A stretch of DNA of 48,291 nucleotides from Akkermansia muciniphila (lineage in GTDB: Bacteria; Verrucomicrobiota; Verrucomicrobiia; Limisphaerales; SIAT01). The stretch spans positions 1-48,291 of the forward strand of contig CAMASG010000011.1 in assembly GCA_945860945.1 (NCBI GenBank). Direction: 5' to 3'. Positions 38,556 through 48,085 of the stretch are shown piece by piece. Position numbers and translations under genes: made by a program. Position 1 is the stretch's first letter. The number at the start of each line of letters is the position of its first letter. The notes beneath the pieces were generated by a model. That model saw only the letters and a list, made by a program, of their open reading frames with translations. It did not search any database and had not been told where the DNA came from.

Positions 38556-41500
38556 TTAATCCACGTAAGTCATCTCGTTGGAGAGCAGGAGCGCCTGCGC
38601 GTATTTCTCCCAGACGTTGAGCGGCTTTGGCTTCGAGCTGGGCGGAGCGAAGTCATCAGCCGCTTTCCACTCGTTCATCACCATCGAGCCGGTCTTCGGA
38701 TCGGGCGCCATCGCTTCCATCATGCCGGCGACCTTCACGACGGGCGCCCAGTTGAAGAAGTCTTGGTGCGGCCCTTTGAGGCAATGCACGATGAAGTCAA
38801 TCGTGTCGCCCTTCTTCACAATCACGTTGGCGGCGGCAGCGGCGGCACGGCCGCGCTTGGCGTTACCGCGCCAGAGTTCCTTCGGCACGCCGGAGGCGGT
38901 GTGGAGCATGAAGCCGCTGACGCCATCATACACCTTGTCGAGCGCGTCCTTCTGGGCTTTGGGGAGTTTGTCGAAGATGGCCTTGGCCTTCTCGTCGATG
39001 TAATGATCGAGACCCCCTTCAATGTTCACAGTCATATCGCGAGGAGCAATCCAGCGACGGACGGCGGCGATCTGCGGGAGAGGGCCGGGATGGCCGCCTT
39101 TCGCATCCATCTGCAGATTGCCGTATTGCGAGTCTGGCAGACGGCCACTCCCCTGCCACGATGTGCCGGTGTAATGCGCGAGCACGTAGAAGCGCGGAAG
39201 CTTTTTGGTGAGCTCGTCGTAGTTGCCGTAGCCGTATTTCCACTGCGATTCAGACGCGGGTTCGGACTTCTGGCCGGATTCTTCCTCGAGGAAGCGGATG
39301 CCGAGCTTCATCTCGATCGGCTCGGGTGAGCGCTGGTAAACAGATGCGTAAAGCGAGGCGATGCGTTGGTGGTCGCTGCGGAAGTCCTTGAACTCCTTCT
39401 TCTCGACGAGGCCACGCGCGAGGCTCGCGATCATCGGACTGTTCAGCATGAAGAGCGCCTGCTGCGGCACGGTGGAAGTGAACCGCTGCGCAACGGTAGA
39501 CTCGGGGTTCGCCATGTCGAACGTGCGGAACATCTCGGGCAGATTGCGGCGGTCGATGAAGGCGTACACGCTGCGGCGCGGCGGGAATGGCGCGCGGGTG
39601 ATCTCGACCGGCTGCCCGCCCATCGTGAGGTCGAGCTTGCCGCTCACGAAGATGAGCGAGTCGCGGAACGCCTCGAAGTCGAGCCGTCGGCGGTTGGCCT
39701 TGTAGAAATAGGAGTTGGATGGATCCAAGGAGCCGTAGCGCGGGTTATCCTCGCTGGACTGCTGGTAGGTGTTCGAAAGCATGATCAGCTTGTGCATCTT
39801 CTTAATCGACCAGCCGTTCTCCATGAACGTCGCGGCGAGATAATCGAGCAACTCAGGGTGCGTCGGGTCTTCCGAGCGCACGCCGAAATCGCTCATGTTC
39901 CGCACGATACCGGAGCCGAAATGGTTCATCCAAATGCGGTTCACCATCACGCGCGCCGTGAGCGGGTTATCCTTGCTGGCGATGGCCTTTGCCAACTCGA
40001 GGCGGCCGCTGCCATCCTTGAAAGGCTGACGGTTCGGACCGGAGAGAATCTCGAGGAACTGGCGCGGCGCCTCGGGCCCGAGATTTTGACGGCTGCCTTT
40101 GATGAACACGCGCGCATTGGCCGGATTGGCGTTATCCACCATCGACATCGCGCGCGGCGGCGAACCGGGATGCGTCACGATGAGGTTATCAATCTTTTCG
40201 TCGAAATCGCGCCCTTCGCGATCGCCGATGCGGTTGTTGTCCAACCGCGCGAGCTGCGCGTAGCTGAACCAACTCGGCGAGGCGGGCCCGTAAAGCACCG
40301 CGCGGAGCGGTTCGAAGTCGGCCATCGGGAGGCCCTTCACGACGTAGCCAAAACGCTTTTCGGCATCCAGCAAATCGGTCGGCGGCTTGATGCTCGCGTC
40401 CTTGCCGCCGGGGTTCGCGCCGTAATAGGCGAGGATCGCACGGCTCCAGTGATACTCAGCTGTGTCGAACAGCGTTTTGTACCGGAGAATCACGTCCGAC
40501 ATCGTGGTCGGCGAGGTCGTCTTGAACTGCGCCAGAACGTGCGGATTGATGGGCTTCTTCTGGGGCACAGCGAGCTTCGCGGTGACGAGTTTGGCTTCCG
40601 CGGCGAAGTTCGCATTAGTCGAGATGGCCGAGTACGCGAGGAAGTGGCCGAAGACAGCGTCATCGGGTTTCTTAGCGGCGAAGTACTTATTCCAGCTCTG
40701 CAACACCTCGAACTCGAGCTTCGTGGTCCGCTCGAACATTTCGCGGTCGGCGCGGTCGCGTATCGGCTTGCTCACGCCCGTTTTTTGCGCGTGCCACTGA
40801 CCGAGATAACGGACGGAGTTCGTACGGGCCTTTGTCTGATAGTCGAACTCGGTCTTCGTGCGGAACATTTTCCGCTCCGCCTCAATACCATCAACGGTTT
40901 TCTTGAAATCCAGATAGTCAGGATTCGTCGCAGCAGAGGAACCCGCCGTGTAATCGGTCTCAATCACCGGCCTCTCCTCCGGTTCGGTGGTGCTGTTGAA
41001 GACACCGTACATGGCGTAGTAATCCTTCGTCGGAATGGGATCGAACTTATGATCGTGGCAACGCGCGCAATAGACGGAGAGGCCTTGTGTGCCACGGGTG
41101 AGCACGTCGATGCGGTCGTCGATGATCTCGTCCTGGTTACGATCGCGGCGGCCGAGGCTGAGGAAGCCGAGCGCCGGCAACGCCTTTTGATTGTCACCCG
41201 GCAAACGGTCCGCAGCGATTTGCTCGATGAGGAAACGGTCGTACGGCTTGTCTTCGTTCATCGCGTGGATGACGTAGTCGCGGTAGGTGTAAGCCCAGAG
41301 GTAACGGCCGTTGCCACCGCGGCGGTTGTTCGCGCCGGTGGTGTCAGCGTAGCGAGCCACGTCGAGCCAGTAACGGCCCCAGCGCTCACCGTAGTGCGGC
41401 GAGGCTAGCAGACGGTCAACCACCTTCGCAAAAGCGTCCGGCGATTCGTCGACCATGAAGGCGGCCGCCTCTTCCGGCGTGGGCGGGAGACCGGTGAGAT

Positions 41501-42125
41501 CGAAATAGGCGCGGCGAATGAGAGTCCACTTGTCGGCCGGCAGTGAGGGAAACACCTTCTTCTCCTCCATCTTGGCGAAGATGAATGCGTCAATCGGGTT
41601 CTTGATCCACGTCTTGACCGGCCGTTGTGGGACAGGAATCTCGGGCTTTTTGACCGGTTGAAAGGCCCAGTGCTTCTTGACCTTTTCCAAATCGTCATCG
41701 GTCTTGAGCATCCCCGCCGCCTTGCCGACGCGCGGATCGGGCGCGCCCATCCGGACCCACTGCTCGAGGTCGGAAATCTGCTCGGGCGTCATGCGCGGCT
41801 TGCCGCCGGGAGGCATCGCCTCGTCATTGGAATCAGGCAAGCGGATGCGTTTGATGAAGGTGCTCTTGCCGGGATCGCCAGCAACGACGACAGGGCCGGA
41901 AGAACCGCCTTTGAGCATTCCCGCCTTGGAATCGAGATAAAGGCCGCCTTTGGCCTTGGGCTTCGCATCGCCGCTGTGGCAACTGTGGCAGTGCTCGATG
42001 AGAGTCGGACGGATTTTCGACTCGAAGAACTCGGAGTCCTCGGGGCGCAATTCCTGAGCGGAGGCAGTCGCCGCCAACCCAGCTGTGATCACCGCCAATA
42101 CCCAACGCGGATGGCTCGCCTTCAT
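38556..42125 (-). CDS. Secreted cytochrome-DUF1549-DUF1553 protein (planctomycetal PSCyt/PSD type)
   Basis: A 1189-residue exported protein from the ATG at 42125, with a good AGGAG ribosome-binding site 6 nt upstream. The signal peptide is at about 1-23 (MKASHPRWVLAVITAGLAATASA). The N-terminal cytochrome has CHSCH (46-50) and a late MPPGGK. DUF1549 follows (KTWIKNPIDAFIFAKMEEKKV, then DLTGLPPTPEEA, YGERWGRYWLDVARYADT). Then comes a second haem-like site, VYCARCHDHKFDPIPTKDYYAMYG, then DUF1553 (RVMVNRIWMNHFGSGIV, LLDYLAATFMENGWSIKKMHKLIMLSNTYQQ). Such proteins are typical of Planctomycetes and Verrucomicrobia and occur with DUF1501 genes, as here. Proposed role is periplasmic oxidation of complex substrates. 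Function unproven. Confidence 0.9.
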   Translation of the reverse strand: MKASHPRWVLAVITAGLAATASAQELRPEDSEFFESKIRPTLIEHCHSCHSGDAKPKAKGGLYLDSKAGMLKGGSSGPVVVAGDPGKSTFIKRIRLPDSNDEAMPPGGKPRMTPEQISDLEQWVRMGAPDPRVGKAAGMLKTDDDLEKVKKHWAFQPVKKPEIPVPQRPVKTWIKNPIDAFIFAKMEEKKVFPSLPADKWTLIRRAYFDLTGLPPTPEEAAAFMVDESPDAFAKVVDRLLASPHYGERWGRYWLDVARYADTTGANNRRGGNGRYLWAYTYRDYVIHAMNEDKPYDRFLIEQIAADRLPGDNQKALPALGFLSLGRRDRNQDEIIDDRIDVLTRGTQGLSVYCARCHDHKFDPIPTKDYYAMYGVFNSTTEPEERPVIETDYTAGSSAATNPDYLDFKKTVDGIEAERKMFRTKTEFDYQTKARTNSVRYLGQWHAQKTGVSKPIRDRADREMFERTTKLEFEVLQSWNKYFAAKKPDDAVFGHFLAYSAISTNANFAAEAKLVTAKLAVPQKKPINPHVLAQFKTTSPTTMSDVILRYKTLFDTAEYHWSRAILAYYGANPGGKDASIKPPTDLLDAEKRFGYVVKGLPMADFEPLRAVLYGPASPSWFSYAQLARLDNNRIGDREGRDFDEKIDNLIVTHPGSPPRAMSMVDNANPANARVFIKGSRQNLGPEAPRQFLEILSGPNRQPFKDGSGRLELAKAIASKDNPLTARVMVNRIWMNHFGSGIVRNMSDFGVRSEDPTHPELLDYLAATFMENGWSIKKMHKLIMLSNTYQQSSEDNPRYGSLDPSNSYFYKANRRRLDFEAFRDSLIFVSGKLDLTMGGQPVEITRAPFPPRRSVYAFIDRRNLPEMFRTFDMANPESTVAQRFTSTVPQQALFMLNSPMIASLARGLVEKKEFKDFRSDHQRIASLYASVYQRSPEPIEMKLGIRFLEEESGQKSEPASESQWKYGYGNYDELTKKLPRFYVLAHYTGTSWQGSGRLPDSQYGNLQMDAKGGHPGPLPQIAAVRRWIAPRDMTVNIEGGLDHYIDEKAKAIFDKLPKAQKDALDKVYDGVSGFMLHTASGVPKELWRGNAKRGRAAAAAANVIVKKGDTIDFIVHCLKGPHQDFFNWAPVVKVAGMMEAMAPDPKTGSMVMNEWKAADDFAPPSSKPKPLNVWEKYAQALLLSNEMTYVD

Positions 42126-42168
42126 TGTTCTCCTTTTTGTGCGCTCGAGGCGCAACGCTTCTTTCAAA

Positions 42169-43593
42169 TCAGGCAAGAACGCCCATGACCGGCTTGCCCC
42201 ACTCGTTTTCGTTGTCGGTATTACCGATGAGTCGGGCATCGCGGGCACCGTTCTTGTACATCAGCTTGGTCGGGTCGAAACCGAGGCTCTGCAGGATGGT
42301 CGCGTGCAAGTCGCGCACATGAACCTTGTTTTCCACGGCGGAACCGCCGAGTTCGTCGGTCGCACCGTAGGCCATGCCGCCCTTTACCGCGCCGCCCGCC
42401 AACACGGCACTGAACGCCTTGTTGTTGTGGTTACGCCCCCCGGGGCCGTCGCGCGTGGGGCTGCGGCCGAACTCGGTAGTGGCCACGATGAGCGTGTCCT
42501 TGAAGAGACCGCGCTGCTTGAGATCCGTCATCAACGCGGCCCAACCCGTGCCGATTTCGCCAGCGAGGCGGCCGACGGTCTGCGGGATGTTGGCGTGCGT
42601 GTCCCAGCCGCCTTGCCAGACCTGCACGAAACGCACACCGCGCTCGAGCAAACGGCGGGCGATGAGCATCTGCCGTCCTTGCGCGGTGTTGCCGTAGGCC
42701 GTGCGCGTATCCTCGGTTTCCTTGGCGATATCGAAAGCCTCGGTGGCGTCGGTCTGCATCCGGTAAGCCAACTCGAAGGACAAAATGCGCGCCTCGAGTG
42801 CGGCATCCGCCTGACGCCTCTGCTTGTGCGCCTCGTTCAACTGGAAGAGGAGGTCGAGCTGTTTGCGCTGATCGCTCTGGGAGGTGAACTGGCTCTTAAT
42901 GTTGGCGATGATTTCTTCAATCTTCGTGCTCTGCGAATTGACGAAGGTGCCTTGGAAGGCACCGGGCATGAAGGAATTGCTCCAGTTCTTCGCATTGGGC
43001 ATGCCGCCGGGAGCAAGCGAGACGAATGCGGGCAGGTTCTGGTTCTCGGTGCCGAGACCGTAAGTGACCCACGAGCCAACGCTCGGCTTCGGCTGCTGGA
43101 ACGAGCCGGTGTTCATCATCAGCGTCGCTTCGTCATGCGCCGGCACGTCGGTGTGCATCGAGCGGATGATCGCCATGTCGTCCGCGTGCGGGGCGAGCTT
43201 GGACCACGCTTCGCTGAACTGAAGACCACTGCGGCCGTAGTTGGGGAACTCGAACTGCGGCGCGAGCAATTCGCGGCCCATACCGCCTTTGCCATCGCCC
43301 GTGCCCATACCGGCCTTGGCCTTCAGCTCCGGCTTCGGATCCCACGTGTCGAGGTGCGTCTGCGCGCCTTGGAAAAAGATGTGAAGCACGCGCTTGGCTC
43401 TGGCCGCGATAGGTGGCTGTTTCGCCGAGAGCAATCCGCCCTGCGCCTGCTGGCCGTGCGTCAACTCGGGCTGAAGCATGCTGGCCAAGCCGAGTGCGCC
43501 GAAACCCGTGCCGAAACGGTTGAGGAACTCGCGGCGGGTCTGGAACTGGTTCTCCAGCCGCGGCCGGTGGTCGTTGATGTAGTTGTCGATCAT
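42169..43593 (-). CDS. DUF1501 family protein with Tat signal
   Basis: A 474-residue protein. The Tat signal TRREFLNRFGTGFGALGLASML is at about 19-40. DUF1501 hallmarks follow in order: FFQGAQTHLDTWDPKP, SMHTDVPAHDEAT, GSWVTYGLGTENQNLPAFVSL, WQGGWDTHANIPQ, VATTEFGRSP and GRNHNNKAFSAVLAGG. The fold is alkaline-phosphatase/sulfatase-like and several of these Asp/His residues would be metal ligands (inference). It lies 43 nt upstream of the DUF1549/DUF1553 gene on the same strand, so they form an operon. In most PVC genomes the cytochrome gene comes first; here DUF1501 is first. Confidence 0.93.
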   Translation of the reverse strand: MIDNYINDHRPRLENQFQTRREFLNRFGTGFGALGLASMLQPELTHGQQAQGGLLSAKQPPIAARAKRVLHIFFQGAQTHLDTWDPKPELKAKAGMGTGDGKGGMGRELLAPQFEFPNYGRSGLQFSEAWSKLAPHADDMAIIRSMHTDVPAHDEATLMMNTGSFQQPKPSVGSWVTYGLGTENQNLPAFVSLAPGGMPNAKNWSNSFMPGAFQGTFVNSQSTKIEEIIANIKSQFTSQSDQRKQLDLLFQLNEAHKQRRQADAALEARILSFELAYRMQTDATEAFDIAKETEDTRTAYGNTAQGRQMLIARRLLERGVRFVQVWQGGWDTHANIPQTVGRLAGEIGTGWAALMTDLKQRGLFKDTLIVATTEFGRSPTRDGPGGRNHNNKAFSAVLAGGAVKGGMAYGATDELGGSAVENKVHVRDLHATILQSLGFDPTKLMYKNGARDARLIGNTDNENEWGKPVMGVLA

Positions 43594-44356: not shown

Positions 44357-47300
44357 ATGAACTTTTTCCGCACAGTCTTGTTTTGCATCCTGCTGGCCGC
44401 TGCCGCACGACCCGCGCAGGCCTTCGTCCTCATCGGCTTGCCATCCGCCAACCAAAGCGTTGTCTTCAACTTCACCGACGACATGGGCGCGCCGCGGGAC
44501 ATTAAGCAGTTCTTCCGCTGGAACATCCCGAACCTCACCTACTCGTTCGATGCCAGCTTCGTGAACTTCTTCGGCCTCGACGGCATCAACGCGGTGAACG
44601 AGGCCTTCGGCGTGGTGAACGATTTCTTTGCTCCAACCGACGGCGCTTACAGCGGTGTCACCGCGCTGGACCTCGTCTCGCACGGTTTCCGCAGCAACTA
44701 CAACACCACCGCAGTCAACGTCACCGCCCAAAACGCGCAGGTGATGGACGTCAAATCTCTCGTGCTCGGAATGCTGTTGAACAACATGGGCATCGGCAAC
44801 CCACACCGCCACGCCTATTCCATCAACTCGGTCAGCACCAACTTGGCCGGCACCCAGTGGAACTTCAACGTGCTCCTGCGCAACTGGGATCCGATGACTT
44901 ACACCTCCTCCTCTAACATCAACAACGTCGGCTACAGCTATCGTCTCATCCACGATTCCCCGCCCTCCGTCGGCGTCACCATCGCGCCTTCCGTGATGGA
45001 CATGGAGGAGTTCACCTCCGACACCTCGGGCAACGCCTTTTCCGCCGTCGCCAGCATCGCCGACGCTTTCTACGGCAACACCGCCCTTTTCTGGACCGAC
45101 ACGCCGACGCTCTACAGTTTCGGCGTCTATTACCACAAAGACAACGCCATTGGCGGCCAGAACGAACCGCGGCACACGCTCACTTATGACGACGCCGGCG
45201 GCCTGAAATACCTCTATCGCAGGAACAACTTCGTCTTCGAATCACTCGATCCCTCGGTGGTCCTCGTCGTCCCCGCACAATTCTTGCCGATGACCGCCAT
45301 CCCTGTTTTCCCCGGTCCCACGGGCCGGCTCTTTCCCGACACACTCGGCGGCAATCAAGGTCTCATCCCGCGCCGCAACCTCCCCGGACTGCCGCCCGGC
45401 ATCCCGACCGTTTCCGTGTTGCCCGCCCCCACCCCGCCGGTGCTCGTGGACGTCGCTCTGCGCGGCGGGCGCGACACCATGAGCTTCACCTATCAACCGT
45501 TCGATTCGCTCCTCGGCGTCACCTTCACCGCCACAAACCAGACGTGGACCGACACCTTCGTGAGCACCAACGGTCAGAACGTCGTGCGGAGCGGCAACGC
45601 CTTCGCCATCGTCCAGCCGAGCCTGAAATTCTTTGACCAGACCGTCGGCCGCGCCGTGTTCCAGCCCGACATCATCTTCGTGGCCGACGACCTCGGCGTC
45701 AGTCCCGACGGCGTGCCCATCGCGTGGGACCGCACGCCCAACACCGCTTGGATCGACAACTCGACCAACAACATCGGCGCCGTCCTCCTCACCGTCATCC
45801 CGACCGGTCCCGGCATCATCTCCACCGCCGGCGCGCCCATCCAATACACTTTCAACAAAATCGCCGAAGGCTTCGAAGTCATCTGGTCCGGCGAAGCCAG
45901 CGTGGTCGGAAACACCACCCCCTATTCGCTCTGGGGCCATATCTTCGGCCCCGGCCCCAACGACATGACCGTCTTCCCGAACGACGGCCGCATGTCCATC
46001 ATCGAGAACGTCGTCGCCCCCGCCACCCTCCCGCCGACCATCTCGATGGTCTCGGATGACGGCGGCCTCTCCCCCATCCTGCCCGCCTCGCTCTCGCGCA
46101 CATCCGAGGCGCTCACTCTACTCGGTCAGAATCTCGCCTCGGTCACTTCCATCGAAATTGTTGATGCCTCGAACACCAACTCCATTCTTCAGACCATTTC
46201 CCCGATCGGCAGGATCCTCTCCGACCAGAAGATCACCATCCCCGCCGGTATTCTGAACGAAACCACCGACAATAACGGCACCGCCAGCGGACGCATTGTG
46301 CGCGCGCGCAACTCCATCGGCGCCGCCGTCGGTCCGCAGGCTTTCGGCATCACGACCGGCATCCCCGTCATCACCGGCACATCGGCGGACAGCGAGACTT
46401 TCGATCGCAGCGGCAACGCCCCGCTCCGCGTCCTCGGCTACGGGTTCAAGGCCGTCAGCAGCGGCACGCTCACACATCTCCGCGTCGAGGATGCCACCGG
46501 TAATTTGCTTCAGCCCGCCAGCGGCACCAGCACAGCCATCACCTTCAACGTCCTCTCCGACACCGAAGCGGAAATCCCCGCCGGCAGCAGCCCTGCCATC
46601 TCCAGTCTCTCCGACGGCGCGAGCCGCCGCATTCGTGTCGCCCGTGCTTCCGCCGTCGGTGACCTCAGCACGGCCAGCCCACGCACCATCGCCAACATCA
46701 CCACCACGCCGGCGCTCACCAGCGTTGGTACTGTGGGCGTCAGCGGCAGCAACTTCCGACGCGATCGGACCGTTGAGATCAATGGTACCGGGCTCAACAC
46801 TGCCACGCAGATTGAGTTGGTGAAACTCGACGGCTCCTCCTTCTCCCCCGCCGTCGTGATTGATCTCCCCGCCGCCGGCGTCGGCATTGAGAGCAACGGC
46901 TCCAGAATCACCATCAGCCCTAACACTCTCACCGACTCGGGCGCAGACGACGGCAACAGCACACGCCGCGTGAAAGTCAGCAATCTCGTCGGCACCGGCA
47001 CACTCGCCCTCGCCAGCGCCTTTGCCGTCAACACCCAACCCACTGTCACCGCCGTTTCCGGCTTCGCCGCCACGCATCCCGGCGCTTTCGACCGCAGCCA
47101 AGCCACTGGTGACGACCTCGTCATCACCGGTACCGGCCTCTTGGGCGCCACCGTAATCCACATCGTGGATGAAAACGGTTTGCCCCTCTCAACGAGCATC
47201 CCATTGCCGATCACCGGCGTGACGGTGACGGATACCTCCATCACGATTGACACGCAGACCGTACAGTTCGGCAGCGGTGCCGACTCGACCAACGCCTCGA

Positions 47301-48085
47301 TCTACCGGCGTATTCGCATCGCCAGCGCGCGGGACAACGCGACCGCCTCGATCGACCAGAAGTTCCAGGTCGCCATCCCGCCCACTTTCACCTCACCGTT
47401 GACACTGGTATCGCCGTCCATCGCGGGCAACTTTGACCGAAACAGCACGCTGACCTTTAATGGTACGGGCTTGGCGAACTTCACGCAGATTCAGATTGTG
47501 GACAGCACCGGCAACGCCCTCACCGGCGTGACCGCGCTCGGCCAAACCACGCTCGGCACCGGTGGTTCCTTCGGCGCCACTAGCATCGTCGTAGCAACAG
47601 ATGCCTTCACGCAAGGCAACCTCCTCGACTCCGTCACCGCCCTCAACCGCCGTGTGAAAGTGACCAACCCCGTCGGCAGCGTGGTCAGCGACAACAACTC
47701 CTCCGGCGCCTTCACCGTCTCCGCCGAACCGACCTTCGGCACCACCGCGCAGACCTTCGCGGGCGGCGGCTTTGACGCCAGTATCACCACCTACGACCTC
47801 AGCGTCGGTTCCCTCGTGATCAACGGGGCGAACTTCCGCGGCGTGGCCAACATCTACTTCGACTACGGCAACGGCACGGTGAGCACCGCCACAGCGGTCA
47901 ACGCCTCCGCGCCACCGGCAGGCATCACCTTCAATGCGGCCGGCACGCAGATCACCATCGCCAACACCTTCTCCTTCCCGACGAGTTGGGTTGGCGGCAG
48001 CAACCGTTCCGTGATCCTGAATACGGCGGCAAACCGGAATTCCACGACATTCTCCACGGGTAGCGGCATCATCACGCAACCATAG
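44357..48085 (+). CDS. Large secreted protein: degenerate matrixin-like domain plus TIG-like repeats
   Basis: A 1242-residue exported protein (signal MNFFRTVLFCILLAAAARPAQA). Residues 50-290 follow the order of matrixin metalloproteases: RWNIPNLTYSFD, a helix INAVNEAFGVVNDFF, SLVLGMLLNNMGIGNPH (134-150) where the zinc motif HExxHxxGxxH would be, SVMDMEEF (212-219) like the Met-turn, and HTLTYDDAGGLKYLY (273-287) like the terminal DDxxGIxxLYG. The zinc His residues and catalytic Glu are replaced (Gly, Met, Asn, Asn), so it should be inactive. A beta-rich middle is followed by about six repeats of roughly 100 residues (579-1240) that look like IPT/TIG beta-sandwiches. Probably a surface or matrix protein. 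No cell-wall or outer-membrane sorting motif was recognised at the C-terminus. Confidence 0.8.
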   Translation: MNFFRTVLFCILLAAAARPAQAFVLIGLPSANQSVVFNFTDDMGAPRDIKQFFRWNIPNLTYSFDASFVNFFGLDGINAVNEAFGVVNDFFAPTDGAYSGVTALDLVSHGFRSNYNTTAVNVTAQNAQVMDVKSLVLGMLLNNMGIGNPHRHAYSINSVSTNLAGTQWNFNVLLRNWDPMTYTSSSNINNVGYSYRLIHDSPPSVGVTIAPSVMDMEEFTSDTSGNAFSAVASIADAFYGNTALFWTDTPTLYSFGVYYHKDNAIGGQNEPRHTLTYDDAGGLKYLYRRNNFVFESLDPSVVLVVPAQFLPMTAIPVFPGPTGRLFPDTLGGNQGLIPRRNLPGLPPGIPTVSVLPAPTPPVLVDVALRGGRDTMSFTYQPFDSLLGVTFTATNQTWTDTFVSTNGQNVVRSGNAFAIVQPSLKFFDQTVGRAVFQPDIIFVADDLGVSPDGVPIAWDRTPNTAWIDNSTNNIGAVLLTVIPTGPGIISTAGAPIQYTFNKIAEGFEVIWSGEASVVGNTTPYSLWGHIFGPGPNDMTVFPNDGRMSIIENVVAPATLPPTISMVSDDGGLSPILPASLSRTSEALTLLGQNLASVTSIEIVDASNTNSILQTISPIGRILSDQKITIPAGILNETTDNNGTASGRIVRARNSIGAAVGPQAFGITTGIPVITGTSADSETFDRSGNAPLRVLGYGFKAVSSGTLTHLRVEDATGNLLQPASGTSTAITFNVLSDTEAEIPAGSSPAISSLSDGASRRIRVARASAVGDLSTASPRTIANITTTPALTSVGTVGVSGSNFRRDRTVEINGTGLNTATQIELVKLDGSSFSPAVVIDLPAAGVGIESNGSRITISPNTLTDSGADDGNSTRRVKVSNLVGTGTLALASAFAVNTQPTVTAVSGFAATHPGAFDRSQATGDDLVITGTGLLGATVIHIVDENGLPLSTSIPLPITGVTVTDTSITIDTQTVQFGSGADSTNASIYRRIRIASARDNATASIDQKFQVAIPPTFTSPLTLVSPSIAGNFDRNSTLTFNGTGLANFTQIQIVDSTGNALTGVTALGQTTLGTGGSFGATSIVVATDAFTQGNLLDSVTALNRRVKVTNPVGSVVSDNNSSGAFTVSAEPTFGTTAQTFAGGGFDASITTYDLSVGSLVINGANFRGVANIYFDYGNGTVSTATAVNASAPPAGITFNAAGTQITIANTFSFPTSWVGGSNRSVILNTAANRNSTTFSTGSGIITQP
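46091..48082 (+). repeat. About six diverged ~100-residue TIG-like repeats within the large secreted protein
   Basis: Units start near residues 579, 680, 799, 910, 1025 and 1138. Each begins with (F)DR or a similar strand, then (I/L)xGxGL or GYGF, a strand I(R/Q/H)I/LVD or VED, then ITI-type strands, RRI/VKV and a closing strand. The first and last units are the most diverged. Repeats differ enough at DNA level to argue for old duplication. Confidence 0.7.

Follow-up and report, generated by a model that had tools for sequence, protein, structure and literature searches.

The stretch analysed here, called the window, comprises positions 1 to 48,291 of contig CAMASG010000011.1 (from an assembly of 2.6 Mb in 131 contigs), and the gene in question occupies positions 44357..48085 on the + strand, where a single open frame encodes a secreted protein of 1242 amino acids (aa). 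The gene is a repeat-extended duplicate of a family gene. On balance, if narrowly, the protein is best read as a repeat-extended paralogue within a secreted, noncatalytic family whose usual gene sits in a pilus-like operon of the Amuc_1098-1101 type, where the family protein would be a surface component or cargo. The product of the window gene probably has a binding or structural role at the surface, and is unlikely to be a broken enzyme. A first-pass annotation had proposed a secreted protein with a matrixin-like fold, a decayed zinc site and TIG repeats. Secretion is borne out by the N-terminal signal peptide in the open frame, and a noncatalytic, repeat-bearing protein with a binding or adhesion role is plausible; the claims about the zinc site and the fold fare differently, as set out below.

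The family core, ~470-500 aa in most members, combines a conserved N-terminal domain (residues 23-300, 44423..45256, +), delimited by family alignments including one with 93 members, and a second conserved domain (approximately residues 362-559, 45440..46033, +), identified by column conservation and also present in the short members. C-terminal additions differ among members and may be absent, He_PIG-like or Ig/TIG-like repeats. In the window protein the core follows a signal peptide (residues 1-22, 44357..44422, +, upstream of 44423) that ends in the sequence ...AARPAQA, just before F23. An AF-x-L-x-G motif past the cleavage site is kept family-wide, with F23 and G27 present in 92/92 aligned sequences. 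The second domain carries the motifs LRGG.D..F...FDS..G, QxVxR...PDIxFxAxDLG, GPG and WGxxxG...FP.

The N-terminal 398 residues of the window protein find matches in 120/146 relatives. The family is present in at least 113 genomes of one Verrucomicrobiota order, and the 93 aligned relatives span dozens of families of that order. A 59-row profile of the N-terminal domain separates members, mostly above 100 bits with fragments down to ~45, from everything else at 22 bits or less. In a sample of 388 genomes from across the phylum, the family was found in only two, both from the same order. At the sensitivity of this search the family appears to be order-specific, and very remote relatives may escape. 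Viral contigs and plasmids yielded no relatives. Neither Pfam (E<=10) nor the PDB (phmmer) held a meaningful match to the window protein, the family lies outside all Pfam and NCBIfam models, and no description of it was found in the full text of open-licence papers.

A zinc site is missing throughout the family. HExxH occurs in 0/93 aligned relatives. The position of the first His holds G in 38, S in 23, E in 7, A in 5 and H in 5; that of the catalytic Glu holds mainly L and M, and that of the second His holds E in 58, N in 21 and Q in 5. The segment DVKSLVLGMLLNNMGIGNP (residues 131-149, 44747..44803, +) had been taken for a zinc helix in decay. The family instead conserves a different core across residues 131-151, D-[LIV]-K-S...LG...P-[EH]-R, with D131 in 90/91 relatives, K133 in 80, S134 in 83, G145 in 91, P149 in 74 and R151 in 76. 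Judged from the alignment, this core is distinct from a zinc site, and a different conserved core at 134-150 is one of the outcomes that the first-pass annotation itself had named as speaking against its reading. Further conserved positions of the N-terminal domain are R54, D65, N176-D178-P179 and N189. Since the zinc site is missing family-wide, the gene at 44357-48085 shows no decay, and since the segment is conserved without zinc ligands, a non-zinc core is maintained and decay in this gene is excluded.

The motifs on which the first-pass annotation rested are all in place (LTYSFD at residues 60-65, LxxLxxxxGxGxP at 137-149, SVMDM at 212-216 and DDAGGLKYLY at 278-287), and the HExxHxxGxxH residues are indeed absent from the window protein with the LxxLxxxxGxGxP spacing present. 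The meaning given to these motifs does not hold up. Position 214, the Met of SVMDM (44990..45004, +), which was proposed as a Met-turn, is Met in only 5 of 90 relatives (A45 W8 S7 Y6 F6 M5). Active members of the family, also suggested, were found in none of ~140 genomes of the order, and a search for relatives keeping HExxHxxGxxH found none in the family. A loose family profile was used to look for HExxH intermediates, and after the family itself it ranked chance matches of FN3-like type, a single active matrixin and an unrelated protein.

The chief finding comes from beyond the window: the genomic setting of the family connects it to a known kind of surface system. The family gene is part of one collinear cluster in 18 of the 20 genome neighbourhoods first examined; one or two of those 18 were called from flanking genes because an antisense frame masked a member. 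The cluster runs from a PilM/N-like gene (Amuc_1101 model NF045709, 2.7e-13) through c7, which is Amuc_1100-like (NF038287, 1.8e-9), c4 with one transmembrane (TM) segment, the secretin c2 (PF00263, 3.5e-31; Amuc_1098 model NF042912, E=2.1e-106) and an optional 5'-3' exonuclease to c1, which is secreted and carries TSP3/fn3, then the family gene, c3 (~1000 aa, no Pfam match) and the variable c5, which in one genome is an M36 peptidase. Of the 90 places in the order with an Amuc_1098-type secretin, 80 have the family gene 2.2-4.8 kb away on the same contig; the remainder comprises three genomes without the family and seven places with no family gene nearby on the contig. In 18/19 loci the stop of c1 and the start of the family gene are separated by -4 to +50 bp, both genes are on the same strand in 19/19, and c3 mostly starts within 50 bp downstream of the family gene. 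Near-zero gaps on a shared strand are as expected of a co-transcribed operon.

The family is an extension of a known kind of locus, not the founder of a new one. Homologues of the secretin, Amuc_1100-like and PilM-like genes of the Akkermansia muciniphila Amuc_1098-1102 locus (NF042912, NF042425, NF038287, NF045709) surround most family members. In Akkermansia the proteins of the counterpart cluster are abundant in the envelope; PilQ (Amuc_1098) was localised to the outer membrane, and Amuc_1100 to the outside of the cell (PMC4960237; PMC5332112). The family protein, c1 and c3 match none of the NCBIfam models of that locus, apart from a short, weak match in the TSP3 region of c1, and the family was not found outside its order in the phylum search.

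Two further features of the cluster were observed. The exonuclease (c6), whose gene follows that of the secretin and precedes c1 in 13 of the neighbourhoods examined, is a stand-alone protein of the PolA N-domain type (PF02739/PF01367; loci L129-L148 and L154-L168, e.g., L148:3981-4991). In addition, c1 and c3 (e.g., L148:4995-7070 and L148:8625-11603) end in a similar stretch, TSTDxxxWxxV...FYRVxxx, which is also carried by the family members L131 and L133. This shared stretch is possibly a C-terminal sorting or anchoring domain.

Unlike the usual family gene, the window copy lies outside the operon. It belongs to a 19-row clade (SH-like approximate likelihood ratio test, SH-aLRT, 99) that draws on two families of the order and includes repeat-bearing members; genomes with better assemblies have 2-5 copies each. 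An orthologue (L033, CAMDJP010000007.1) is 87-89% identical over the N-terminal part. A genome of the same genus (G002) has both kinds of gene on one contig, the window orthologue and, ~6 kb downstream, an operon copy of 1279 aa that is 62% identical to the window protein over the N-terminal part. The window's own genome carries a second family copy on contig C44 (48% identity over the N-terminal domain), and its secretin contig, C31, stops inside c1, where the family gene would start. The window ends 206 bp past the stop codon of the gene at 44357-48085; if the window is the whole of contig C11, the two contig ends together indicate that the operon copy of this genome probably lies in an assembly gap.

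A third paralogue with an Ig-like C terminus is found directly upstream of rsmH-ftsI-murE-murF-mraY, the division and cell wall (dcw) cluster (G000:C44, L149:1470-4439; also L150, L152 and L153), the gene names having been read from translated sequences. In some genomes a second copy, split or shortened, is also present outside the operon (L165:7023-8611 and L166:7235-7753).

The extension that marks the window copy consists of six repeats of 110-118 aa each, spanning residues 560-1242. They were delimited in an 18-row alignment with the repeats of two relatives and lie on the + strand at 46034..46363 (repeat 1), 46364..46708 (repeat 2), 46709..47038 (repeat 3), 47039..47380 (repeat 4), 47381..47728 (repeat 5) and 47729..48082 (repeat 6 with the C terminus). 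An AF2 model of repeat 3 predicts an Ig-like sandwich (predicted local distance difference test, pLDDT, 84; predicted TM-score, pTM, 0.78). In a Foldseek search this model matches domains of the Ig and E-set types, including those of cyclodextrin glycosyltransferases and Bacteroides SGBP-B proteins, at a best E of 1.5e-3, with none at E<=0.001. The likeness to the IPT/TIG and E-set Ig-like repeats of surface proteins lies in this model and its Foldseek matches; the repeat profiles have no TIG match in Pfam at E<=1. The earlier description as TIG repeats survives in part: 'TIG-like' is a fair label, whereas assignment to TIG at the level of Pfam is without support.

These observations suggest how the protein may work. 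Sec would export the core across the inner membrane by way of the signal peptide, and the core could then serve as a surface or periplasmic subunit, a tip or a cargo of the pilus-like apparatus, as the operon coupling suggests. The zinc-free N-terminal domain would bind a partner. In the window copy, the six predicted Ig-like domains would make up a stalk by which the core is displayed or anchored, and the protein may act as a stand-alone adhesin or binding protein. Several points weigh against a role in the machine. Operon membership is no proof of physical association, and the secreted products of c1, the family gene and c3 could be unrelated, with only a promoter in common. The NCBIfam scores, that of the secretin included, all fall short of the equivalog cut-offs. 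The window copy and its orthologue stand outside the operon, and the linkage need not extend to the window copy.

The origin of the N-terminal domain is a separate matter. Chances are about equal that it is a different alpha/beta secreted domain, its resemblance to matrixins amounting to a short convergent helix motif (LTxDDxGGLxYLY); such an independent fold competes only with descent from matrixins and is compatible with the operon-linked surface protein favoured here. All profile-level comparisons with matrixins (Peptidase_M10, PF00413) argue for it. The active matrixins of the same order, used as the comparison set (PF00413 in 88/146 genomes), are a separate, easily recognised family. With them the family reaches an hhalign probability of just 8-14%, all from 15-21 columns of the last helix. 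Against the NF038122 metalloproteases it reaches 0.3%, where active matrixins reach 95%, and on this value NF038122 was rejected as a closer parent. As a positive control, the profile of the active matrixins retrieves MMP-16 from the PDB (1.6e-17), whereas the family profile matched no matrixin there, and Pfam M10 had no match in 31 family members. PDB and Pfam searches with the N-terminal domain and repeat profiles gave nothing usable. An AF2 model of the N-terminal domain from three sequences reached a pLDDT of 31, too low to serve for a fold search. The conserved non-zinc core described above, together with R54, D65, N176-D178-P179 and N189, also favours an independent fold, as does the single occurrence of the same short motif in an unrelated 1740-aa protein. 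On the other side stand the order and register of matrixin-like blocks, which exceed controls, and the fact that missing profile similarity is no proof of a new fold.

The unrelated protein (L207, G111:C515:4479-4583) carries 'SEFSGLTREDVGGLRYLYSAK', a near-match to the C-terminal helix motif of the family, in a linker. It has a putative single TM segment followed by this low-complexity linker and is the only clear case of the motif outside the family in 138 genomes.

It is somewhat unlikely that the family is a general secreted adhesin whose genes merely lie downstream of the pilus-like operon and have no role in the machine, the window copy then being an ordinary Ig-repeat surface protein. 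The window and dcw-adjacent paralogues outside the operon would suit such a protein, as would the variability of the C termini, which adhesins share. Against this, the coupling to the secretin, seen in ~80 genomes and with gaps close to zero, is tight for genes that would be no more than neighbours.

Descent of the N-terminal domain from an M10 peptidase or other metzincin is unlikely. The zinc site would have been lost in the family ancestor, the central strands lost or rearranged, and the domain would now bind peptides or a partner like the inactive ADAMs. The case for it comes from a block test, an ungapped three-block profile comparison between the family and the active matrixins of the order, with 82 windows from ten unrelated families and 1000 column shuffles as nulls. 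The best-scoring family segments correspond in correct order to alpha-1, the zinc helix and the C-terminal helix, with a sum of 25.7 (27.9 without ligand columns) against a null maximum of 13.7 (15.6) and 0/1000 shuffles; the NF038122 control gives 34.9. Most of the sum comes from the C-terminal block (13.49 against a null maximum of ~6.1; 0/1000 shuffles), in which the family meets the matrixin motif L[ST]xDDxxxxxxLY. The main driver is the 'LTRDDVGGLRYLY' helix; in the window protein this block is TLTYDDAGGLKYLYR (residues 274-288, 45176..45220, +), which is also the strongest family signature and the region aligned by hhalign. The zinc-helix block is in exact register with 'FVEAVALHEIGHALGLAHS' and is modest (11/1000 shuffles, 2/1000 without ligand columns; a reversed profile scores nearly the same), and the alpha-1 block, GINAVNEAFGVVNDFFA (residues 76-92, 44582..44632, +), is weak (6.05; 82/1000). 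The family profile also has a weak hidden Markov model match to one active matrixin of the order.

The spacing is at odds with metzincin topology. In the metzincin fold, strands II-V come after alpha-1 and before the active-site helix. By contrast with that layout, alpha-1 and the 'zinc helix' are ~29 columns apart in the family and ~87 in active matrixins, and the distance from the 'zinc helix' to the last block is 94 columns against ~19. On sequence grounds, the ~29-column gap therefore leaves no room for these strands. The in-order alignment with matrixins claimed in the first-pass annotation thus holds for block order, which is above chance, and fails for metzincin spacing; the fold itself has no support from profiles, the PDB or topology. 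Family and matrixins share secretion and three collinear helix motifs, but the family lacks zinc ligands, a conserved Met-turn and any profile or PDB match. Pseudo-metzincins do exist, among them ADAM2, ADAM18 and ADAM32, which like the family are noncatalytic with a hydrophobic helix replacing HExxH; in ADAM2, QLLSLSMGITYD stands in place of HExGHxxGxxHD (PMC11266112). In these ADAMs the Met of the Met-turn is kept and the sequence can still be recognised as that of a metzincin, neither of which holds for the family. Membership of the family in M10 is not supported by these comparisons, and a remote, rearranged pseudo-matrixin origin is possible. The matrixin-like order of motifs is by itself weak evidence for a metzincin.

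A bolder combination is very unlikely: the family would supply the pilus-like machine with a hitherto unrecognised subunit whose N-terminal domain came from an ancient, rearranged, zinc-free metzincin, a pseudopeptidase in a secretin-dependent surface apparatus that is conserved across the order. Recent inactivation of a protease gene in the window's genome only can be dismissed, with no point found in its favour and the family alignment refuting it through the lack of HExxH in 93 relatives, the strong conservation of the segment and the open frame.

Next to the gene, window positions 38556-43593 (-) encode a DUF1501 protein (PF07394, 1.6e-128) and a large cytochrome-like, PSCyt-type protein, a gene pair typical for Planctomycetes and Verrucomicrobia.

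No surface system of the Verrucomicrobiota is better known than the Amuc_1098-1102 cluster, whose Amuc_1100 protein is immunomodulatory. To our knowledge, the composition of clusters of this type outside Akkermansia has been little described. The present analysis defines a family outside Pfam and NCBIfam coverage, and it makes the secreted three-gene module of c1, the family gene and c3, coupled to the secretin across the order, a set of testable candidate components for the part of the machine at the surface.

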